A stretch of 64,000 bases of DNA from Arundinibacter roseus. Its GTDB lineage: Bacteria; Bacteroidota; Bacteroidia; Cytophagales; Spirosomataceae. The position numbers and the translations under genes were made by a program. The notes beneath the pieces were generated by a model, which did no database searches, was not told the DNA's origin, and saw only the letters and a list, made by a program, of their open reading frames with translations. The number at the start of each line of letters is the position of its first letter. Positions within the stretch are counted from its first letter, which is position 1. The stretch lies in the NCBI RefSeq assembly GCF_004348825.1, contig NZ_SMJU01000004.1, positions 62,818-126,817 on the forward strand, in the 5' to 3' direction. Positions 9,966 through 30,102 of the stretch are shown here, piece after piece.

Positions 9966-10706
9966 TCAAAATGGCAGTTTCAGGCTTTTCTGAAACGGAT
10001 GCCGTAAGTTACTTTTTCCAGTCGATTTCCGCAACTCCACCACGCTCCCAAACACCTTTTGAAGCAGTAAAAAGTCCTTTTCTTCATTTTCCACGTTTCT
10101 AAACTCGGCCAGTCCGCCCCGGTTCGTGAAAGTGTCCTTTTGGGCCCAATAGAACCTCGTGTCCTTCCAGATTAGTCTGTGGTGGTGCGCATTAAGGAGC
10201 GATATCCAATAATCTTCGTTACAGATGATATCCGGACTGTACCATAGCTTTGACCCTTCCAATACTCCGTGGGCACAGCCGGTGACGTATCCGCTCAATT
10301 GGATAGGATTGAGGCTATTAAATGAAATGGGTGTAGGAGAGGAGCTGAACCCGAAAAGAAAAGCTCCTGCCTTGCGAGCCGCATAGCCCGTCATTTGGAT
10401 AATCTCGTAGGCAATTTCCGGATCCACCACCGATTCTTCACCTTTTTCAGTGTAGATCCGTGACAAGTGATCTATGTCATCATCTAACATGAAACAATCT
10501 CCCACGTGCTTAATAATCCAGTCGCGCTTGCGGCTGAGGCCTTTAATCGAATCCGGATGCACAATGAGTTCAACCCCCGGATTACATTTTTTATAAATTT
10601 CCGCCTGACTTTCTTCAACGCACAGGGCAGCGCCATATACCGCGCTGGTCGTTCTGATCCGGTTCCAGCGCTTGTGGCTCGGGATCACTATTTTGATGTC
10701 TTTCAT
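9966..10706 (-). CDS. TET-associated-type glycosyltransferase (TAGT-like)
   Basis: The start is ATG 10706, which overlaps the ParB-like stop by four bases (ATGA). A GTG-type extension to 10778 would only re-read the neighbour. The 246-residue protein is a GT-A-fold glycosyltransferase: IVIPSHKR near residues 6-13, GLSRKRDWIIKH before the metal/sugar-nucleotide motif LDDDID (DDD at 75-77), a later NEDYW, and a basic KDTFTNRGGL. This layout matches the TAGT family, which glycosylates oxidised or hydroxymethylated pyrimidines in phage DNA. No TET/JBP dioxygenase or base hydroxymethylase is visible in the window, so the acceptor is unknown. Confidence 0.7.
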   Translation of the reverse strand: MKDIKIVIPSHKRWNRIRTTSAVYGAALCVEESQAEIYKKCNPGVELIVHPDSIKGLSRKRDWIIKHVGDCFMLDDDIDHLSRIYTEKGEESVVDPEIAYEIIQMTGYAARKAGAFLFGFSSSPTPISFNSLNPIQLSGYVTGCAHGVLEGSKLWYSPDIICNEDYWISLLNAHHHRLIWKDTRFYWAQKDTFTNRGGLAEFRNVENEEKDFLLLQKVFGSVVELRKSTGKSNLRHPFQKSLKLPF

Positions 10707-11317
10707 TTGGTGAGAGCGGCAATTGCCTGTTTGGCGTGGATCACATGGGTTGTCCCGATCTTGGAACTTTTGTAGCATTTGGTCCGGTCGAGCCCAAGCT
10801 TTTCGGAGACGTGATTGAAGTCAATTTCATTCTGGCAAATGATCACGATCGAATCGAATTTTTCCGAAAATTTTGCCACAATGGGCATTTCAGGCTCTTC
10901 AAAGTGGGAGTCGCTCAATTCTTCCAGTGCCGCATCCAGGCTGCCAAGGTCAATCCCGTAGGTAGCAAGATCCACTTCTTCCGAAAACTCAGCCTTCAAT
11001 AGTTCCAGATCCCATTCTCCAAAGTGGCTGTTCTCAATGATCGACACTTCCTTGAATTCTTTTTCGGTGAGTTTCCGGCTGGCAATGTTTACGTTGATGG
11101 GTTCATTGCCCAGGCCCAGCTCCTGCAAAACGGTCAGGCGCTGATGACCACTGATGATCGTACCGTCCGAATCAATGACAGGTGGCGTGATCAACCCGTA
11201 GGCTTTTAGCTTTTCTTCAAGTTCTCTTTTGCGGGTAGACTTTATTTTCCGCGGATTCTTGGCGTACGGCAGAAGCTCGTTTGGGCGCCGCTGCCCAATC
11301 TGAAAAAGATCATTCAT
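10703..11317 (-). CDS. ParB-like nuclease-domain protein
   Basis: The 204-residue protein has a ParB/sulfiredoxin-fold domain over residues 10-110: ELLPYAKNPRK, LKAYGLITPPVID, and the key IISGHQRL motif, then EVSIIENSHFGEWD. The C-terminal third (KFSEKFDSIVIICQNEIDF) resembles tails of phage ParB-like proteins that accompany or are fused to DNA-modifying enzymes. It is translationally coupled to the TAGT-like glycosyltransferase. A DNA-binding/nicking or CTP-binding role that guides modification is an inference. It is not a partition system, since no ParA is present. Confidence 0.8.
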   Translation of the reverse strand: MNDLFQIGQRRPNELLPYAKNPRKIKSTRKRELEEKLKAYGLITPPVIDSDGTIISGHQRLTVLQELGLGNEPINVNIASRKLTEKEFKEVSIIENSHFGEWDLELLKAEFSEEVDLATYGIDLGSLDAALEELSDSHFEEPEMPIVAKFSEKFDSIVIICQNEIDFNHVSEKLGLDRTKCYKSSKIGTTHVIHAKQAIAALTK

Positions 11318-20816: not shown

Positions 20817-22076
20817 TTATACTTCCAACATCTCTTCCCATCGGGTGGTGTAGCGGAGGGATCGTTTTTCCTGCCGTAGGTGCCAGCTTCGGTTATAGCC
20901 CATTTTGGCGACTTTGATGGTATCTCGGCCCATGCGGCGATTGAGTTTGTCGAGCACAGCCATAGCCTTTCGGTCTCGCTCTCGGCGGTTTGGATCCATG
21001 ACAAAGAGGTCTGTTTGGACTTGTCCTTCAGGGACAATGCCGCTGACCATTATTCCCGCTTTTTTGTAGTGATAATTTTCCCGAAAAATGATTTTTAGAG
21101 CCTTCATGGCGTAGGAGATCATCTCCATTGTGGAGTTGGAGGCCATTGGAAAATGGATAACCCGGTTGCCGTAGTATTGCGGCTGCTCGGGTTTGTGGTA
21201 GTTGGTAAATACAAAAACGTGCATGAGGTTGGCAGCGGAGTGTTGTCTCCTTAGTTTTTCGGCACAGCGGGCGGTAAAGGTGGCGATGGCTTCTTCCAGG
21301 ATTTTAAACTCGGTTACTGCTTTGCCAAAACTCCGGCTTGTGCAGATTCCTTTTTTTGCCTGGGGCTGATCTTCCAGCCGGTAGCAGGGCTGTCCGCAAA
21401 GCTCCCGGACCATCCGCTCGCCGACGATACTCATGTGTTTTTTGATCCAGCCAATATCGGTCAAGGCAAGATCGAGAGCTGTATGGACATTATGTTGTTG
21501 GAGAAGTTTGGTGTATTGCCGGCCAATTCCCCAGACGTCTTCCAGTTTTGTGAGTGATAATGCCTGCTCCTGGATGGCTTCACTGTCGATAATGAAGATG
21601 CCGTTGTCGGTCCGTTTTTTGGCGATTCGATTGGCGATTTTGGCGAGGGTTTTGGTTGGAGCCACTCCAACGCAAACGGGGATGCCGGTGTATTGATATA
21701 CAGTATTCCTAATTTTGAAGGCCAGATCGGTTAAGTTTTCGTAGGGCATTTGGCCGAGATCGACAAAGGCTTCGTCGATGCTGTAAATTTCCAGCGCGGG
21801 GACGAGGTCGAAAATGACGCGCATGACTCGGGCGGACATGTCGCCGTAGAGGGCGTAGTTGGATGAAAAAACATGGATGTTGTTTTTTCTGAATAGTTCT
21901 TCGTTGAGGAAGGCGGGCGCTCCCATTTCGATGCCGAGGGCTTTGGCCTCATTGCTCCGGGCGATGACGCAACCGTCGTTGTTGCTGAGGACCACCATGG
22001 GTTTTCCATTTAGTTTTGGGTCGAAAACTCGCTCGCAGCTGGCGTAAAAGTTGTTGCAGTCAATAAGTGCGTACAT
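20817..22076 (-). CDS. umuC: UmuC, Y-family DNA polymerase V subunit
   Basis: The 419-residue protein is a full-length translesion polymerase. It starts [18 protein letters not shown] with the first catalytic aspartate (D6). It has the [11 protein letters not shown] motif with the paired acidic residues, the [15 protein letters not shown] finger segment, and a helix-hairpin-helix region ([15 protein letters not shown]). QTDLF within [10 protein letters not shown] fits a clamp-binding motif. It works with UmuD' in SOS mutagenesis. The start lies 5 bp after the umuD stop, so they form one operon. Confidence 0.95.
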
Positions 22077-22081
22077 GGGTT

Positions 22082-22483
22082 TTAGTGTTTATGGATAGTG
22101 TATGTGACGACGCCCCAAATCTGAAATTCTGAATCTTCGCTAATTGGAATGGGCTTATAAGCCGGGTGTTCGGGCACGAGGTAGGTGCCTTTCTCGGTCA
22201 GTAGCAGGCGCTTTACGGTAAACTCGCCGTTGAGTACGGCCACGACAACTTTGCCAGAAGTGGCTGGTTTGGAGCGATCAACTAGGAGGATGTCTCCGGC
22301 GTGGATGTTGGCGCCTTCCATGCTGTTGCCTTTGACTTTGACGCAAAATGTGGCGGAGGGGTTCTGAATGAGGTGCTCATTCAGGTTAAGTTCAAGCTCA
22401 ATGTAGTCATCCGCAGGAGACGGAAAGCCCGCTTGTATAGGGCTGACGTACAACGGCAGAAGGATTTTGTAGGTGTCTATCAT
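22082..22483 (-). CDS. umuD: UmuD/LexA-like self-cleaving S24 protease
   Basis: I choose ATG 22483 ([20 protein letters not shown]), 133 residues, as UmuD normally has no longer N-terminus. The cleavage site is QAGF (A18-G19). The catalytic dyad is S54 in GNSMEG and K91 in TVKRLL. RecA-stimulated self-cleavage makes UmuD', which activates UmuC. A longer start at 22543 would translate the operator region. An inverted repeat lies about 20 bp upstream of the start. Confidence 0.93.
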
Positions 22484-22503
22484 GAAGGAGTATGTTTGAA
22501 TTA

Positions 22504-22518
22504 TATCATAAATTGATA
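22504..22518 (-). promoter_or_regulatory. Possible SOS/repressor operator of umuDC
   Basis: TATCA and TGATA (22504-22508/22514-22518) form a dyad with 5-base spacing about 21 bp before the umuD start, next to TATAGTTG, a near match to the Bacteroidota -7 element. It is a candidate operator for LexA or the phage repressor. No known consensus was matched. Confidence 0.35.
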
Positions 22519-22571
22519 CAACTATAATAAAAAACAAACACAATCCAGTGATTTATTTTTGTTTAAAGCCC

Positions 22572-23909: not shown

Positions 23910-24251
23910 TTACCAGTTAAACTGTTTCTCCATTTTCCAGACCCCATTTTCAAACTGGTAGATTTTGTTCTCAGCCCCGGTATCTTTATTAATTCTGGTA
24001 TCAAAGATTGCGGCAGAATGTACTTTTCCTCTAAAATAGGTCTCCATGATCCGGAACATTTCGTTTACAGCATCTCCAATATTCCTGATCCGGGGCTGAG
24101 CCCATTCGTTGGACCACTTGGACCACTCATTGCCATCATGGAAATTAACGACCATGTAGCAGCTGGCCATTTTTCGTTGCTTATCTTTCTGCTCCTGGGT
24201 CAGCGGTTTACGCTTGGAGGTCTGCTGTCCTAAAAATCGACGATCTTTCAT
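23910..24251 (-). CDS. Hypothetical early phage protein, 113 aa
   Basis: The ATG at 24251 carries the shared start context ATCTAAGCAA. The protein starts with a basic, disordered 30 residues (SKRKPLTQEQKDKQRKMAS), then a beta-rich domain with several tryptophans (DGNEWSKWSNEWAQPRIRN) and ends GVWKMEKQFNW. It is unrecognised. It lies between the replication-type gene and the 114-residue gene. Confidence 0.55.
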   Translation of the reverse strand: MKDRRFLGQQTSKRKPLTQEQKDKQRKMASCYMVVNFHDGNEWSKWSNEWAQPRIRNIGDAVNEMFRIMETYFRGKVHSAAIFDTRINKDTGAENKIYQFENGVWKMEKQFNW

Positions 24252-24294
24252 TTGCTTAGATGTGTTTATAAATGGATAACTGCTTAAATTTTAA

Positions 24295-25758
24295 TCAATC
24301 GGTATAATACCCTGTACCATCACCTTCCATGTAATTTTCAACATACACAATCACTTCCTTAGTAACTTCTCCACCTGCCCGGCGGGCTCGTTGGGCGGCC
24401 TGAAAGCGTGGTGACTGAAAATTATGGGTTTGGCGATCAAGATATTGTTTGGCAAAACGTTCCCGGTATTTAGCGCCCAGGCCTGCGAATAAAGCATCAT
24501 AGTATTGATACAATCCCAGTTCGGTTTTGCCGGCTACCTCTTTGCGAGGTGTTTGTCCCATTCGTAGTTTCAGGAAGTCACGTCGGGCAGTAATGAGCAA
24601 TCGATCACAGCGCTTCCGATGAGCATACGCATCTCGTTGCCGTTTCTGCTCTATTTTGTCCTTCTTCATCCAGGCTTCAATGCCAATGAATCCGAGATGG
24701 TTTTCTCTGTCAAAATAGCCTTTTCCGGCGATGACCACTGCGTATGGATCCGGTCGATAGGCATCCGGGTGTCGATCAAAGTAACGTCCGGCTTTATCAA
24801 GTTTGCTTAGCTGATAGACCTGTACGTTTAGCCATTCTGCATCCGAAAGCGGATCGGTAAAATTGTTGTAGACACCTGCCATTATGGCGTATAGGGCAGC
24901 TTCCTGCTCCTGATCATTGAAATCTCGTCCCGGATAAATCACTCGCCATGCATATAGCCAGAACTCAACCAGCATTTTAAGATGCATTGGGGCGAGATCC
25001 TTAGGGTTACGACGAGGTGTTGTGGGTTGTGGCAGCCGTATGGAGGTCATCGCCTGCCGGGGCCGCACGCCGCCGCCTCCAACTTGATCTTCTCTCCGTC
25101 CGGCGGTATTGAGGGGTTGCTGGCCGACAGCTGTGGTTTCTGCTCGACCCCTCTGTCCCTGAACGTTCTCTCCGTGTTCAACCAACATATCCACTTTCCT
25201 TGTTTCTTTTTTTTCTATTATCTCTATGTAGGTACTATTAAGCGGAAAAATTTTCGGGTTTTCCCCTTCAAAATGCGGTTTTGGAGCATTTTTGAACTCG
25301 TTGGCGGGGGTTTCTGATTCGGGCTCAAACAGGAATTTCGGGCTTATCCACACTTCAAAATCCTTCCTTGTACCATGAAATTTTGTTTGGATGTAGCCAA
25401 GCTCCCTGAGCCTGGAAAGATGGTTTCTGACGGTTCGATCGGTGCATCGGCAAAAGGGGGCGAGACGTACATTATTGGTATGTAGACCAGGCGGTGAATC
25501 CTTCGTATAGGCTCCATCAGCCATCATGGAAGCCGTGCGGTTATAATTTCGGACATACTCCGTTACCAAAGCGTGAAAGGTGGTACTAATCGCTTCCGGA
25601 ATCAGGCCGACCCTGCGGTGTATGAGCTGAACATCTGGTTTGCCATCTGCTGTCATGATCTTTCGTTCAACAGCTTGCGTAGGGCAGCTATTGTTATGCT
25701 CATCAATGGCCTTATATGCCCGCCGTACTACATTTGATATCTCAATTCTGGGTAGCAT
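24295..25758 (-). CDS. Winged-helix, replication-initiator-like phage protein
   Basis: The 487-residue protein has a winged-helix segment near residues 105-135 (FCRCTDRTVRNHLSRLRELGYIQTK), matching the layout of phage replication/DNA-binding proteins. A disordered Gly/Arg/Gln-rich linker follows (residues 190-255). A helical C-terminal domain has several lysine/arginine-rich helices (WMKKDKIEQKRQRDAYAHRKR). It is the largest gene of the early region. An initiator or helicase-loader role is inferred. It is preceded by a 415-bp leader containing two tRNA-like elements and further hairpins. ATG 25758 is the only sensible start. Confidence 0.6.
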   Translation of the reverse strand: MLPRIEISNVVRRAYKAIDEHNNSCPTQAVERKIMTADGKPDVQLIHRRVGLIPEAISTTFHALVTEYVRNYNRTASMMADGAYTKDSPPGLHTNNVRLAPFCRCTDRTVRNHLSRLRELGYIQTKFHGTRKDFEVWISPKFLFEPESETPANEFKNAPKPHFEGENPKIFPLNSTYIEIIEKKETRKVDMLVEHGENVQGQRGRAETTAVGQQPLNTAGRREDQVGGGGVRPRQAMTSIRLPQPTTPRRNPKDLAPMHLKMLVEFWLYAWRVIYPGRDFNDQEQEAALYAIMAGVYNNFTDPLSDAEWLNVQVYQLSKLDKAGRYFDRHPDAYRPDPYAVVIAGKGYFDRENHLGFIGIEAWMKKDKIEQKRQRDAYAHRKRCDRLLITARRDFLKLRMGQTPRKEVAGKTELGLYQYYDALFAGLGAKYRERFAKQYLDRQTHNFQSPRFQAAQRARRAGGEVTKEVIVYVENYMEGDGTGYYTD

Positions 25759-25843
25759 ACAGGCGTATGAGTGGGGTTAGTGACTTCATTTTGTTCATAC
25801 TAAAATGGCATTTGCATAAAATTTTAAACAAACCTTCCCTTAC

Positions 25844-25869
25844 CCACGCCAGGCGTTACCCTGGCGTGG
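25844..25869 (-). terminator. Perfect 10-bp hairpin in the leader of the replication gene
   Basis: CCACGCCAGG (25844-25853) and CCTGGCGTGG (25860-25869) flank CGTTAC. On the minus strand the following bases are GTAAGGGAAGGTTTG, not a clean T-run, so it could be an attenuator or mRNA stem, not a full terminator. Confidence 0.5.
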
Positions 25870-25904
25870 TTTGGGCACTCATGTAGAATTCTGCTCTACC
25901 CTGT

Positions 25905-25961
25905 GAAAGCTCCAGGAATCGAACCCGGCCCCGAACCAACACGGGGGCACCGGCAGCTTTC
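25905..25961 (-). ncRNA. tRNA-like element 1 (57 nt)
   Basis: On the minus strand the 5' end GAAAGCT pairs perfectly with AGCTTTC at the 3' end (7-bp acceptor-like stem). Immediately inside the 3' end is a T-arm: CCGGG, loop TTCGATT, CCTGG (canonical TTCRANY loop, 5-bp stem with one G-U). The D arm is absent. The linker GCCGGTG contains a GG pair that could dock on the T-loop, and a CCCC/GGGG hairpin (loop about 11) replaces the anticodon arm. A 22-nt leader (25962-25983) is shared with element 2. It is not a functional tRNA by any standard layout. Confidence 0.65.
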
Positions 25962-25983
25962 TCCTTGCCTGAGTAAGCAGACA
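25962..25983 (-). repeat. 22-nt leader repeat of the tRNA-like elements, copy 1
   Basis: TGTCTGCTTACTCAGGCAAGGA on the minus strand (reported here in two parts: TGTCTGCTTACT and CAGGCAAGGA) immediately precedes the acceptor-like stem. Copy 2 at 26118-26139 differs at one base. Confidence 0.75.
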
Positions 25984-26014
25984 ACTCCTTCTTAAAAACC
26001 CTCCTCTATCCGAT

Positions 26015-26039
26015 ATCTGATGTCTTTACATCATCAGAT
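26015..26039 (-). other. Hairpin between the two tRNA-like elements
   Basis: ATCTGATG (26015-26022) and CATCAGAT (26032-26039) form an 8-bp stem with a 9-base loop. It directly follows the 3' end of element 2 in the minus-strand direction. Confidence 0.55.
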
Positions 26040-26041
26040 GC

Positions 26042-26117
26042 GAAAGCTCCGGGAGTCGAACCCGGCCTCACCAATCACCTACATTCAATATCCACTCTGA
26101 GGGCTCCAACAGCTTTC
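26042..26117 (-). ncRNA. tRNA-like element 2 (76 nt)
   Basis: The ends are the same as in element 1: GAAAGCT and AGCTTTC pair over 7 bp, and the T-arm is CCGGG, loop TTCGACT, CCCGG, here perfect. The linker GTTGGAGC again contains GG. CCTCA and TGAGG (5 bp) close a loop of 27 bases in place of the D and anticodon arms. Total length is that of a tRNA, but no D-stem or anticodon stem can be drawn. It is preceded by the second copy of the 22-nt leader (26118-26139). Confidence 0.65.
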
Positions 26118-26139
26118 TCCATGCCTGAGTAAGCAGACA
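26118..26139 (-). repeat. 22-nt leader repeat of the tRNA-like elements, copy 2
   Basis: This copy matches 25962-25983 at 21 of 22 positions and abuts element 2 in the same way as copy 1 abuts element 1. Confidence 0.75.
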
Positions 26140-26173
26140 GCACCTTGCATTAGTATCCCGTTATCATGTTTAC

Positions 26174-26419
26174 TCACTTTGCTAGTTTTTCCAGATACTC
26201 CTTCATTGCATCATCTCGTTTCCTGATGAGCTTTGGCCGGCTGCACCCCCAGCGCAGATACACCAGCCAGGGAGATTTATTTTTTGATTCCCGGACCGCC
26301 CATTCCCAGAAAACGAAAAGCGCTGCTGATGCTTCTAATCCGGAGGAGTCCTCTAATTGCCCGCACAAGGCCGCTGCCCAGGTACGACTTTGGCCTATTG
26401 TTTTGCTTTCGTGCTTCAT
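26174..26419 (-). CDS. Hypothetical early phage protein, 81 aa
   Basis: The ATG at 26419 opens an 81-residue protein, MKHESKTIGQSRTWAAALCG, with a hydrophobic centre (ASAALFVFWEWAV) and a basic helix (YLRWGCSRPKLIRKRDDAM). No family is recognised. It follows the 94-residue gene by 8 bp and is the last gene before the leader with tRNA-like elements. Confidence 0.55.
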   Translation of the reverse strand: MKHESKTIGQSRTWAAALCGQLEDSSGLEASAALFVFWEWAVRESKNKSPWLVYLRWGCSRPKLIRKRDDAMKEYLEKLAK

Positions 26420-26427
26420 AATAGTTG

Positions 26428-26712
26428 TCAGATTGAGCCATTCAATTTCTCTGAAATCTTCGTTATCGATAAGCCAAGAAATGCTTCATGCAAGCCTTTC
26501 ATTGTAAATGATTTTTCGACGCTCGTAATCATAAATTCAGCAGATCTTCCTGTGAATTCTCCCTTTATTGCGCACCGTTCTTTGATCATGAGTCTGTCGC
26601 CAATGCAAACTTTTTCATCAAAGAAAACCTGTTCAATAATCAGGAATTTCAAGTTGCCTTGGATCAAATTTTCGTAGCGGATGGGCGTGGAAGTGATGGC
26701 GTATTCATTCAT
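26428..26712 (-). CDS. Hypothetical early phage protein, 94 aa
   Basis: I choose ATG 26712 (MNEYAITSTPIRYEN), overlapping the zinc-finger gene by 8 bp; a longer frame to 26832 would overlap it by 128 bp. The protein is beta-rich with alternating charged residues (FLIIEQVFFDEKVCIGDRLMI) and ends in a short helix. It is unrecognised. It sits in a tight four-gene early operon. Confidence 0.55.
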   Translation of the reverse strand: MNEYAITSTPIRYENLIQGNLKFLIIEQVFFDEKVCIGDRLMIKERCAIKGEFTGRSAEFMITSVEKSFTMKGLHEAFLGLSITKISEKLNGSI

Positions 26713-27037
26713 GACTACCTCCTTTCCCACAAAAGCGGACGTGAGCTCCACGAGCCTGTTTAGAGTTAAAGGTTTTGCCACAATCGGGGCAGGCAAATAG
26801 CGCATCAATACTCGTAGCTTTTCCTGGCTCAACCTGCGAAGCTTTTATTGGGAGTTGATTTCCCCGACGTTCTTCTGCCTTTTGAACTAGCCAGCTGTTG
26901 GGAGCCAGCATAAGCTTCCGACATAGACGTGCAATAGCTGTCAAATGATGGTATTCCTGAATCATATCTCCCTCACATTCAAGCATTCGCTCGTAGTGAT
27001 TTTCCAGCTTTTCCTTGTAGTAGGATATTAAATGCAT
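26705..27037 (-). CDS. Small phage protein with C-terminal C2HC zinc-finger-like motif
   Basis: The 110-residue protein has a helical N-terminus (residues 1-60) and ends with FACPDCGKTFNSKQARGAHVRFCG: C-x2-C-x12-H-x3-C, a classical zinc-finger spacing with cysteine in place of the second histidine. Such fingers are rare in bacteria and occur in phage early proteins and Ros/MucR-type regulators. DNA or RNA binding is likely. It overlaps both neighbours by about 10 bp in an early operon next to the switch region. Confidence 0.65.
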   Translation of the reverse strand: MHLISYYKEKLENHYERMLECEGDMIQEYHHLTAIARLCRKLMLAPNSWLVQKAEERRGNQLPIKASQVEPGKATSIDALFACPDCGKTFNSKQARGAHVRFCGKGGSHE

Positions 27038-27234
27038 TGCATTAACTGTTTCAGAGTTTTCACCAACTTTGGTTTATAGCGCAACATGGGCGTTGCCGTA
27101 TAAACCTTTGCTTCTTTACGAAAACCACCAGTTGCGCCAAGGGCAAGTAGGGCATCGTTCCATTTTGAAGTAGGGATATACCCCACCAGTCTACCGTCCA
27201 CCCGGACGGTACATTGATTTTCAATCGTGATCAT
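27028..27234 (-). CDS. Hypothetical early phage protein, 68 aa
   Basis: ATG 27234 has the shared start context ATCTAAGCAA. The 68-residue protein starts MITIENQCTVRVDGRLVGYI (a beta hairpin) and has a basic C-terminus (LRYKPKLVKTLKQLMQCI). It is unrecognised and overlaps the zinc-finger gene by 10 bp. It heads the early operon. Confidence 0.55.
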   Translation of the reverse strand: MITIENQCTVRVDGRLVGYIPTSKWNDALLALGATGGFRKEAKVYTATPMLRYKPKLVKTLKQLMQCI

Positions 27235-27277
27235 TTGCTTAGATGTATAGTTGAAAATGGACTCTAAAAAGCTCTCA

Positions 27278-27379
27278 TTACGGATCTGAGTTATTCAGTC
27301 CCTTAGCTATTTGCCTTCCCCAGGCAAGGATTGCCAGACATAGGCAGATGTATAGGAATATGTAAATCATTTTCTTCAT
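27278..27379 (-). CDS. 33-aa single-span membrane peptide
   Basis: ATG 27379 opens a 33-codon frame, MKKMIYIFLYICLCLAILAW and a polar tail, ending at a TAA. It has a basic start, one hydrophobic span of about 17 residues and a short tail, like phage lysis or membrane-active peptides. It is too short to be certain. It lies between the regulator gene's terminator and the 68-residue gene. Confidence 0.4.
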   Translation of the reverse strand: MKKMIYIFLYICLCLAILAWGRQIAKGLNNSDP

Positions 27380-27401
27380 GTAGTTGAGTTCATTTTAAAA
27401 T

Positions 27402-27454
27402 GGGCCTGAGCTGCGCTCCTCAATCCTCATGCATTCCATGGCAGCATCAGGCCC
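27402..27454 (-). terminator. Hairpin after the small regulator gene
   Basis: GGGCCTGA-GCTGC (27402-27414) pairs with GCAGC-A-TCAGGCCC (27441-27454), 13 bp with one bulge. The minus strand continues ATTTTAAAATG. It is long-looped, so moderately certain. Confidence 0.6.
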
Positions 27455-27479
27455 TTACTGTGTGTGTAGAGTAGTATGG

Positions 27480-27737
27480 CTATGCGTCTGTTTCAAACAA
27501 GCAGGGTATCGCCTTACTCGGTAGTCTGAATAGCGATTCGGCTTTCGGGATATTTCTACAAATTATTGTTTTCAGAATAGTAGGCATTTCTACCATTCTA
27601 TTATCAGGCTTTACGGTCCAGTTGTAAAACCTTTGGTGACTTACTCCGGCCGCTGCAAGATCTTCCAGGATTTGAGCTCTAACAGGTCTCCGTTGCTGTT
27701 GATACAGCTTCCCTAGCTTGTTTTTTTCTTTTGCCAT
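27480..27737 (-). CDS. Small lysogeny-region regulator (Cro-like by position)
   Basis: ATG 27737 (MAKEKNKLGKLYQQQRRPVR) gives 85 residues. The longer frame to 28070 would be an AT-rich, low-complexity leader and is rejected. The segment LEDLAAAGVSHQRFYNWTVK predicts a helix-turn-helix where the second helix contacts DNA. It diverges from the repressor across a 580-bp AT-rich control region, like cro versus cI. No family was recognised. Confidence 0.55.
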   Translation of the reverse strand: MAKEKNKLGKLYQQQRRPVRAQILEDLAAAGVSHQRFYNWTVKPDNRMVEMPTILKTIICRNIPKAESLFRLPSKAIPCLFETDA

Positions 27738-28319
27738 AGTCAATTCTATATGCCATTTGTACAAAAAACTTTGATTTTTTATCAATAAGTTTGTACAATT
27801 GTGCAATTCTTTATGCAATAATAGATGATATAATCTATAAAATAAAAGATATAATATAAAAATTTTTATCATAAAATTCAATATGTTGATTATCAATGTA
27901 TTATAAAAATATGAATTAGAGTATATAGTTGAATTATTACATTGAAAATTCTGAGAATTCAGGAGAAGCCCTGATAAATGAAAATAAATCAGAATTTCAA
28001 GTGAGAAATTGATCAGTGCATCGCCAAACAGATAATGATCATTATTAGGCAATAGAAGAATTAGCGACACTAGTAGATCAATTCTTAGAATTTAGGACTT
28101 GTTTCAAAACAATTTAGAAAATGTTTGTTTTGATAAGCAGGTAGGTGTTCGAGTTCAATTCGATCAGAAAACTTGTTGATCAACGGGTCATTAAGTTTCT
28201 ATCAGGTTAGCATAATTAAACAATTGGTAATACACTATATTCCTAAGCCAATTAAATTAATTTATTGATAGTGAGTTATTTAAAGAAAAAATTTTAACAA
28301 AAAATCAAAAGTAAAATTT
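27738..28319. promoter_or_regulatory. AT-rich divergent control region of the lysogeny switch
   Basis: The 582 bp between the small regulator and the repressor are strongly AT-rich and carry no credible gene. This is where divergent promoters and operators should lie. No clear set of repeated operators stands out by eye. Confidence 0.45.
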
Positions 28320-28763
28320 ATGGAAAACACGGTTAATAATAGGATTAATCAGCTGATTCATTTCCTAAATAAGAACCACAAGACGTTTGCCGAATCTATC
28401 GGTAAGGCGCCAACGGTTATTTACAACACCGTTAAAGGAAAGAACAAACCAAGCTTTGATGTTCTGGAAGCTATTTGCGAGGTTTATCCTCAGGTCAACC
28501 CAGGCTGGCTGTTGAAAGGCGAAGGGGAGATATTACAATCCGAGCCAAAATCAAAACTAACAGATCAAGCACCAGACGGATATTTGCATGAGCATATTCG
28601 GCGATTAGAGGAAAATTTTTCAAAACTGGCCAACCAACTTGAAAAAAAAGATGAGCAAATTGAGAATTTGCACGAAATGTTGAAGATGGCGTTGGGAAAG
28701 TTTGATCCTGACAGCGACGAACCGAAAATGGCATCTTTTACAATTTTGAGAAACGCTAGTTAA
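28320..28763 (+). CDS. XRE-family phage repressor with C-terminal coiled coil
   Basis: The 147-residue protein begins with a HTH_3/XRE domain over residues 5-65: INQLIHFLNKNHKTFAESIG, APTVIYNTVKGKNKPSFDVL, and ICEVYPQVNPGWLLKGEGE, the last being the usual ending of this domain in Bacteroidota phage regulators. A coiled coil follows (residues 85-125, HIRRLEENFSKLANQLEKK). It is on the plus strand, opposite the rest of the prophage, as expected for the lysogeny repressor. ATG 28320 is the first start. Confidence 0.85.
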   Translation: MENTVNNRINQLIHFLNKNHKTFAESIGKAPTVIYNTVKGKNKPSFDVLEAICEVYPQVNPGWLLKGEGEILQSEPKSKLTDQAPDGYLHEHIRRLEENFSKLANQLEKKDEQIENLHEMLKMALGKFDPDSDEPKMASFTILRNAS

Positions 28764-28783: not shown

Positions 28784-28938
28784 GGTGGCACTTACGGTGT
28801 CAGGATAATAAGCCACTGGCTTAAACGGTTCTTTATCAGTTTTTTATGTCTATCAGAATGATCCGATATTCTCCACAAAACCCGCTTTACAGCTATGTAA
28901 AGCGGGTTTTTGCTGTATGTGCCACCCTATTTGCCACC
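28784..28938. other. Candidate prophage right end / attachment region
   Basis: GGTGGCAC (28784-28791) and GTGCCACC (28919-28926) are inverted, part of a longer imperfect match, and TTGCCACC (28931-28938) repeats the motif. TAAGCCACTGGCTTA (28809-28823) is a short palindrome that could be a core or operator. The segment lies between the last phage gene and the first host gene. Arm-type repeats of a tyrosine recombinase are one explanation. The matching left end is outside the window. Confidence 0.35.
28877..28911 (+). terminator. Strong terminator after the repressor
   Basis: AAAACCCGCTTTACA (28877-28891) pairs perfectly with TGTAAAGCGGGTTTT (28896-28910) over 15 bp and is followed by TTTTTG on the plus strand. 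It isolates the host sialidase gene from the prophage. Confidence 0.85.
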
Positions 28939-28953
28939 GTTAATACTATTCGC

Positions 28954-30102
28954 ATGATCAATCGCTCCCTTTTTCTGATTTTCCTTTTAATTATTTGTAG
29001 CTCCCCGCTTTTTGCGCAAGCTATAACCGTCTTTGAAAATGGTGAAGCGGGCTACCGTTGTTTCCGGATTCCGGCAATTGTCAGTGCTCCTTCGGGAAAC
29101 TTGCTGGCCTTTGCCGAAGGGCGCCGGAACAACTGCGGAGATTTTGGTGATGTGGATGTGGTCATGAAAATCAGCACCGATCAGGGTAAATCCTGGGGAG
29201 AATTGAGGATTGTGGCCGAAAATCAGGATTTGCAGGCAGGAAATCCAGCTCCTGTTTTTGACTTTACAGATCCGAACTTTCCAGAAGGAAGACTTTTTTT
29301 GATTTACAATACAGGAAATGCTTCCGAGCAGAAGGTTCGGGAAGGGAAGGGCGTACGGGAAGTTTGGGTAAAAACGTCTGTGGATGAAGGTACAACCTGG
29401 TCCGAAGCCCAAAATATAACGACTTACGTGCATCGACCAAACAATCCATCGTTTGCATCAGCTTACACTTTTTCGGAAGATTGGCGCTCCTACGCCAATA
29501 CGCCCGGCCACGCCATTCAACTGACCAAAGGCAGGTATCGCGGACGTTTGCTGGTGCCGGCCAACCACTCGGTAGGGCCGCCCAAAGCCGATTTTACTGA
29601 TTATCGGGCGCACGCTTTTTTCTCGGACGATCATGGAAAAACATGGCAACTTTCTGACGAAATAGATTTCCTGGGCTCCAACGAAAGTACAGCGGCACAA
29701 CTTGCTAATGGTCAGGTGTTGATGAATATGAGAAATCAAATGGGAGAGCCCAAGTTCCGACTCGTGGCCAAAAGTAAAGATGGAGGGAAAACCTGGGGGA
29801 ATACGATTGTGGAGACCCAATTGCCCGATCCGGTTTGTGAGGGAAGTATATTGGCAGTTGGTACAAAAAGCGGGAAAAGATGCCTGCTATTCTCAAACCT
29901 AAACCATCAAAGTCTCCGACAAAATCTGACAATTTACCGCAGTGATGACCGCAAGGGCGAGTCCTGGAAGCGCTGTAAAACCGTGGAGGAAGGTTCAGCG
30001 GCTTACTCAGATTTGGTAGAAGTACAGCGCGGACTACCAGGGATTTTGTATGAAAAAGAGGAATACAGCAAGATTGTATTCCAGGCATTTGTTTTAGATT
30101 AA
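28954..30102 (+). CDS. Exo-alpha-sialidase (GH33)
   Basis: I start at ATG 28954, which gives a clear signal peptide (MINRSLFLIFLLIICSS...FAQ). An upstream in-frame start would read the terminator. The 382-residue protein has the FRIP motif (residues 37-40) whose arginine binds the sialate carboxylate, and four Asp-boxes of the S-x-D-x-G-x-x-W type: STDQGKSW, SVDEGTTW, SDDHGKTW and SKDGGKTW. It should fold as a six-bladed propeller releasing terminal sialic acid in the periplasm or at the surface. It is the first host gene after the prophage. Confidence 0.93.
   Translation: MINRSLFLIFLLIICSSPLFAQAITVFENGEAGYRCFRIPAIVSAPSGNLLAFAEGRRNNCGDFGDVDVVMKISTDQGKSWGELRIVAENQDLQAGNPAPVFDFTDPNFPEGRLFLIYNTGNASEQKVREGKGVREVWVKTSVDEGTTWSEAQNITTYVHRPNNPSFASAYTFSEDWRSYANTPGHAIQLTKGRYRGRLLVPANHSVGPPKADFTDYRAHAFFSDDHGKTWQLSDEIDFLGSNESTAAQLANGQVLMNMRNQMGEPKFRLVAKSKDGGKTWGNTIVETQLPDPVCEGSILAVGTKSGKRCLLFSNLNHQSLRQNLTIYRSDDRKGESWKRCKTVEEGSAAYSDLVEVQRGLPGILYEKEEYSKIVFQAFVLD

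Follow-up and report, generated by a model that had tools for sequence, protein, structure and literature searches.

Two tandem tRNA-like units lie upstream of a replication-type gene in a prophage of the host genome (labelled G000 here), which confirms an observation made in an earlier note on this DNA. The units are real tRNA-like elements, as that note had claimed, and each has a 7-bp acceptor stem and a T arm with a TTCRANY loop. They are best read as sitting within a larger leader that extends to about 25837. The order on the minus strand is the 81-aa gene, unit 1, unit 2 and the 487-aa gene. Positions are those of the window, the whole stretch of 64,000 nucleotides that was analysed, and the features are as follows.

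26174 to 26419, minus strand: small gene of 81 aa, upstream of the units
26122 to 26139, minus strand: leader hairpin of unit 1, TGTCTG-CTTACT-CAGGCA, 6 bp
26042 to 26117, minus strand: tRNA-like unit 1, 76 nt, with stem CCTCA/TGAGG and a linker containing GG
26015 to 26039, minus strand: hairpin 3' of unit 1, ATCTGATG / CATCAGAT, a by-eye reading
25966 to 25983, minus strand: leader hairpin of unit 2
25905 to 25961, minus strand: tRNA-like unit 2, 57 nt, with a mini D hairpin and stem CCCCG/CGGGG
25883 to 25904, minus strand: start of the 3' module, N-CA-GGGTAG.., with small hairpin GTAGA/TCTAC (read by eye, outside the covariance model)
25837 to 25875, minus strand: GC hairpin (25869-25844) with loop GTAACG, within CCC/GGG, with covariation
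24295 to 25758, minus strand: replication-initiator-type gene of 487 aa, with a winged-helix-like N terminus

Architecture, prophage setting and copies of the units

Within each unit, a leader hairpin is followed by four bases, the 7-bp acceptor stem, a GG linker, one stem and the T arm (loop TTCGAYT), which abuts the acceptor stem directly. The acceptor stem of unit 1 pairs GAAAGCT (26117-26111) with AGCTTTC (26048-26042), and its T arm is CCGGG-TTCGACT-CCCGG (26065-26049). In unit 2 the acceptor stem pairs 25961-25955 with 25911-25905, and the T arm is CCGGG-TTCGATT-CCTGG (25928-25912), with one G-U pair in the T stem. The full 22-nt leaders (26139-26118 and 25983-25962, minus strand) are identical at 21 of 22 positions and differ at one base, just as had been reported, and both contain a 6-bp hairpin with the loop CTTACT. 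A normal D arm and anticodon arm are absent from both units; their replacement by a GG-containing linker and a single stem, as previously described, holds with the amendment that the linker (GYYGGWGC) is able to form a 2-bp mini D hairpin. The 57 and 76 nt once given as lengths of the middles are those of the whole units, and the middles measure 26 and 45 nt. The 3' flank of unit 1 differs from that of unit 2.

ARAGORN predicted no tRNAs in the window, and Rfam called no family there at gathering scores. The claim that the units are not tRNAs was sustained in part: they fall below the RF00005 gathering cut-off, though they have its acceptor stem and TTCRANY T arm. A complete tRNA is present in many relatives, so the most fitting reading of the window units is that of tRNAs which were reduced where they stand. 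Because these reduced units were missed by ARAGORN and by the Rfam cut-offs in the window, such elements may be commoner than known.

The units are encoded by a prophage whose terminase and head-protease genes share their strand. A DNA polymerase match and a gene for an S24 peptidase lie between these genes and the units, and the divergent gene at 28320 matches repressors. The units also occur in two IMG/VR contigs, which are probably the host's own genome. Two more IMG/VR contigs (L062 and L063) carry relatives of the 487-aa protein preceded by an ARAGORN tRNA; judging by sequence, L062 repeats G085 and L063 probably repeats G057. The DNA polymerase (phrog_1268) and S24 peptidase genes stand side by side as a UmuDC-like pair (20817-22543, minus strand). 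Elsewhere in the prophage is a beta-glucosyl-HMC-alpha-glucosyltransferase match (9966-10778, minus strand; phrog_842, E 6e-26), and a BNR/sialidase-type repeat gene (28846-30102, plus strand; PF13088, E 3e-40) adjoins the prophage repressor.

Calling the 487-aa gene replication-type seems fair but not proven. Its protein matched two phage replication initiator families in PHROGs weakly (phrog_270, E 5e-5; phrog_186, E 7e-4) and had no match in Pfam or NCBIfam. When its AlphaFold2 model (mean pLDDT 74.8, pTM 0.39) was compared with a viral fold library, some matches were named replication initiator or lambda O, with E values from 1e-5 and low TM-scores; a PDB fold search gave nothing at E 0.001 or better, and the top rows, with E values worse than this, include plasmid Rep or initiator domains. 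By DNA similarity, the region had no match in phage, plasmid and E. coli collections. The replication protein likewise had no match in the phage collection, and among plasmids it matched 2 of 72,556 records over only 21% of its length. The small upstream genes were not named by PHROGs, Pfam or NCBIfam, apart from a sub-threshold zinc-finger hint.

The region of the units was matched at four places in the host genome, and six units with the exact leader core were found at four prophage loci: two in the window, two at C39:400673, one at C9:79333 and one at C11:393481 (C9, C11, C39 and C42 are contigs of this genome). The C9 unit looks as if the start of unit 1 had been fused to the end of unit 2, and the C11 unit belongs to a more distant prophage, in which the replication protein is 47% identical. 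A counterpart of the 81-aa gene precedes the unit at all four loci. The 3' ends read N-CA in five of the six units and N-TA in the other; CCA was encoded by none of the 14 host-family tRNA genes checked, and the own-genome units likewise mostly end in N-CA. The genome has five copies of the replication gene (also on C39, C9, C11 and C42), and their unit sets differ.

The acceptor and T-arm pattern is far more frequent than chance resampling yields. A finder for this pattern, near-identical to that of the locus survey below, was applied to 40 related upstream regions and to 200 Markov resamplings. The loose finder gave 43 hits, with 30 of the 40 regions positive, against resampled means of 1.85 hits and 1.8 regions (maximum 6), and the strict finder gave 26 hits in 21 of the 40 regions against 0.025 in the resamplings. 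Loose hits numbered six on the reverse strands of the same 40 regions, four in the remainder of the window on both strands and seven in 12 other stretches of the host genome, with zero strict hits in each of these controls.

Across the six own-genome units, standard pairs filled 99.3% of pair cells, and pairing fell to 51-53% when the structure was slid by one column. The leader hairpin keeps its six pairs in all six units with one U-G/C-G change, and the C9 unit is unpaired at one acceptor position. Two pairs of the middle stem changed on both sides (CCTCA/TGAGG, CCCCG/CGGGG and CCTCG/CGGGG). The covariation score of the six units was reached by 5 of 500 shuffles and their count of pairs changed on both sides by 209 of 500, which is not unusual; taken alone, this covariation is modest evidence. 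Folding energy gave no distinction from shuffles, with z-scores of 0.54 and -0.64 for the single units and -1.17 for the C11 unit, and the minimum-energy fold of a 135-nt stretch with part of the 3' module differs from the proposed one.

Related loci and the 3' module

We detected homologues of the replication protein in 26 of 222 genomes of the host's bacterial family, which we take to be Spirosomataceae; two homologues are in records of Dyadobacter soli and Runella sp. At 41 homologous loci we surveyed as much as 1.7 kb of upstream sequence with ARAGORN and the acceptor/T-arm finder. ARAGORN called a sense tRNA at 25 loci and the finder an element at 33, so that a tRNA or reduced tRNA preceded the gene at 34 of the 41 loci, which are not independent and include near-copies (three from the own genome, two from G085 and four from G077/G036/G052). 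No antisense ARAGORN tRNA was found upstream of any of the 41. One hit, 563 bases upstream in G012_C442, was judged spurious, which gives 33 of 41 loci by reading. Seven loci gave no hit, two of them with little upstream sequence (G012_C656, only 162 bases; G052_C171, only 791) and five with the full 1.7 kb (three in G068, together with G062 and G077_C48b). The link drawn in the earlier note between the units and the replication gene is upheld, and the pattern, whose absence from related prophages was to count against that note's reading, is present upstream of homologous replication genes in related genomes.

The form of the element varies widely among these loci. RF00005 scored above its cut-off at 21 of the 41, and the anticodons called by ARAGORN include Met, Trp, Pro, Asn, Glu, Ile, Ala and others. 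Some elements have enlarged anticodon arms (G057, G028 and G001b), some a single stem (the window, C11, G003, G025 and the second G074 elements) and some only an acceptor and T arm joined by roughly 15 linker bases (C42, the second G209 element and G123). The anticodon and body are variable or gone and the acceptor and T arm usually retained, in agreement with the constraint on these ends proposed before; by eye, the proximal elements of G012 and G000:C42 have no canonical T loop. The G209 element has 92% identity with its host's initiator tRNA, with paired changes in the acceptor and anticodon stems. Several relatives (G209, G074) have kept a full tRNA whose anticodon stem, too, shows paired changes. 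Some members at least are therefore host-like, with the whole fold retained. A quick tree was built from 37 proteins of the family and 6 from outside it. With element labels assigned by hand and G012_C656 entered as present, presence or absence changed at least four times on this tree and the states none, reduced and tRNA at least eight times. A hairpin with the core CCTGCTTACTCAGG recurs before the G003 unit, and at many loci (for example L036, L045 and L084) a GC-rich hairpin, sometimes followed by a T-rich stretch, was seen by eye 5' of the tRNA.

Downstream of the units, the 3' module is conserved in its own right. Its class A (12 sequences) has the consensus N-CA-GGGTAGG, in which GGTA is invariant in all 12, then the small hairpin and then the GC hairpin (loop consensus GTAACG) in its CCC/GGG frame. 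In the alignment of T arm and module, both partners had changed in 12 of the 17 pairs, and the covariation score of T arm plus hairpin was 0.545 against 0.205 in shuffles (none of 500 reached it) and at most 0.163 when slid. A model of the module found 17 places at E < 1e-5 in the 222 family genomes, of which 12 had built the model and five were further ones, including one duplicate copy. All 17 adjoin the replication gene or the gene directly before it. No place outside the family was found at E < 1e-4 in 390 genomes of the order (best 4e-4). At E 0.05, with the stricter filters of Infernal, weak hits of this model (R2) occurred in 70 of 222 family and 78 of 390 order genomes; among hits above 1e-5, those in G049:C12 and G001 sit at the replication gene by coordinates, and the remaining weak hits may be host tRNA T arms or chance. 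By eye, more distant relatives have a class B (N-CCA-CCGAAGTAGGC) or a class C (N-CA-ACGAGGACGCC) module. An open frame lies between the element or module and the initiator gene in G023 (151 aa) and G102 (155 aa). These two proteins (L031:2939-3394, minus strand; L038:1047-1514, plus strand) resemble each other and are presumably of the DUF4494 type.

The element appears to be characteristic of a single lineage and not to accompany the gene wherever it occurs. A 25-sequence profile had a match in 54 of 380 genomes of the order, 13 of them in the host's family, and in 9 of 395 genomes of the phylum, 7 of them outside the order. No ARAGORN tRNA or acceptor/T-arm unit was found within 1.5 kb of the match for 22 outside-family homologues (18 in family f12 and four weak ones in f26, leaving out the weak or fragmentary matches L172-L174, L176, L178 and L180), nor for G062 of the host's family, which was re-examined alongside. 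The 22 homologues without a unit indicate that such replication genes manage without it.

Comparison with known tRNA-like RNAs

The nearest Rfam structure to the units was mascRNA-menRNA (RF01684), which matched unit 2 at 26.3 bits (E 0.0036) and the other unit at 14.7 bits, both below the cut-off of 42.5. Unit 2 aligns over positions 1-56 of 56 and shares the arrangement of acceptor stem, mini D hairpin, one stem and T arm, with the anticodon absent, though its mini D stem has 2 bp and that of the model 3. Unlike mascRNA and menRNA, the window units belong to a prophage, lie 5' of a coding operon, are tandem and carry a leader hairpin and 3' module, and the likeness is probably convergent. 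PMC4919922 describes mascRNA and menRNA as RNAs that RNase P and RNase Z release from MALAT1 and MEN beta, a tRNA-like t-element as a substrate of plant protein-only RNase P, and phage-induced RNAs among the substrates of bacterial RNase P. In PMC11143913, E. coli RNase P RNA cuts hairpins composed of an acceptor stem, T stem and T loop, and bacterial RNase P cuts the phage RNAs M3 and C4. The window units are likewise phage-encoded, but their cleavage is predicted; they would join phage RNase P substrates of the M3 and C4 kind if cleavage were shown. They appear to be a real variant of RNase P-substrate phage RNAs, and RNase P processing, one of the roles suggested earlier, stands as a candidate. 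Priming and mimicry of a host tRNA, also raised there, may have a part as well.

Mitochondrial tRNA punctuation and plant mitochondrial t-elements also place tRNA or tRNA-like folds between genes as cutting signals. The mitochondrial scheme is genome-wide, whereas the window arrangement occupies one place in a phage operon. A further comparison, with tmRNA, had been drawn in the earlier note and proved correct only for the acceptor and T arm and the lack of a normal D arm, which the tRNA-like domain of tmRNA shares with the units. The alanine identity pair of tmRNA is G3-U70, but pair 3:70 is A-U in all six units, which also have no long insert. This pair and a match of 10.7 bits over 17 positions, a T-arm piece scoring against a cut-off of 47, rule tmRNA out. 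A literature search found no description of such an element, which is weak evidence given its narrow terms and thin coverage of subscription journals.

Explanations for the units

The analysis demonstrates the structures, their covariation, their place on the sense strand and their link to the replication gene. The explanation that we prefer, with about even confidence, is that the units are tRNAs reduced in place that serve as RNA-processing signals (tRNA punctuation) in the leader of the prophage replication operon. A single transcript would begin with the early genes, pass through the units and continue into the replication genes. Host RNase P would cut on the 5' side of the acceptor/T-arm fold, at the 26118/26117 and 25962/25961 junctions, and RNase Z would cut after the discriminator base, at 26041 and 25904. 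Both cuts together would release small tRNA-like RNAs and give the replication mRNA a structured 5' leader of defined extent, comprising the 3' module and GC hairpin. We infer the transcription, both cleavages and an effect on replication-gene expression. In favour of this explanation are the frequency of the element upstream of homologous genes, with all its ARAGORN tRNAs in sense, the cutting of acceptor/T hairpins by RNase P RNA, the likeness to mascRNA, the N-CA ends alongside host-family tRNA genes that encode no CCA, and the position of the 17 strong 3' module places. The acceptor/T-arm half of a tRNA is read by RNase P, RNase Z, the CCA enzyme and EF-Tu, and the retention of the acceptor and T arm with the decoding half shed points to partners that read that half. 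A sense position heading the replication genes would suit a signal that divides early messages from replication messages. The chief objection to a pure processing signal is the persistence of full tRNAs at many loci, which leaves room for translation, decoy or small-RNA roles; the paired anticodon-stem changes in G209 and G074 also count against it, being more than a bare processing signal needs. Further points against it are the two proximal elements with no canonical T loop, the unpaired acceptor position of the C9 unit, the seven loci with no hit, the outside-family homologues without a unit and the folding energies, which resemble those of shuffles.

Should the units be processing signals, they would show that a bacterial virus can punctuate its protein-gene transcripts with tRNAs. 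They would also provide a natural series on how little tRNA the processing enzymes need in cells, and a handle on replication-gene control in temperate Bacteroidota phages. More tentatively, and with somewhat less than even confidence, we suggest that prophages of this family may hold a "tRNA slot". Host tRNAs, often initiator-like, would enter it and wear down stepwise, to D-armless single-stem forms and then to acceptor plus T arm, with the 3' module staying and RNase P and RNase Z cuts setting replication-gene expression. Such a slot would parallel, in bacteria, both mascRNA and the tRNA punctuation of mitochondria, and living genomes would still show the series that leads from full tRNA to minimal substrate.

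Several other explanations were weighed. The processed unit could itself be the product: a small, stable tRNA-like RNA with effects in trans, which might, for instance, tie up tRNA-binding proteins or serve as an antisense or immunity RNA in the manner of P1 C4 or P4 CI, the latter a phage RNase P substrate of this kind. The differing middles of units 1 and 2 would allow separate targets, and PMC4919922 and PMC11143913 describe phage RNAs made by RNase P, but the bodies differ between loci, down to a bare linker, and it is the operon-side 3' module that recurs, so we regard this as unlikely. We find it similarly improbable that the units are captured host tRNAs that supplemented translation or resisted tRNA-cutting defences and are now partly decaying. 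Decoding requires an anticodon, which the window units do not have, and the acceptor and T stems of reduced units are still paired, unlike in free decay; nor is there an evident reason for sense placement at one gene. What speaks for capture is the complete end of the series: the 21 of 41 loci above the RF00005 cut-off and the G209 element, so close to its host's initiator tRNA and with paired changes in both its acceptor and anticodon stems.

Placement of all 17 strong 3' module hits at the replication gene would also suit replication control, with the tRNA-like RNA as a primer or the stretch as part of an origin beside the initiator gene. The 151- and 155-aa frames between element and initiator gene in G023 and G102 fit an operon leader better, and 25700-26250 contains only two short two-copy repeats (13-14 nt) besides the units, which makes such control quite unlikely. 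Least probable, and in our view very unlikely, is a nut/put-like antitermination or termination site before the replication genes in which the tRNA fold is incidental: it would account for the position, the two-hairpin 3' module and the GC hairpins seen by eye 5' of many units too, but it leaves the retention of acceptor and T arm unexplained, and a search of 24000-28400 confined to intrinsic-terminator-like sites called none at the units. An attachment-site tRNA fragment was not favoured, given the element's position at the replication gene.

The 5' motif GGGTTTA occurred at 6 of 32 loci (1.3 expected) and GGTTTAG at 7 of 32 (0.9 expected), and neither was used in the argument. Initiator-tRNA-like elements with an enlarged anticodon arm were seen at L074:2215-2304 and L070:2930-3021 (both minus strand), and another in G183 (L033:3081-3151, minus strand) has the anticodon CTA and was called tRNA-Pyl by ARAGORN, possibly an amber-reading tRNA or a product of decay.
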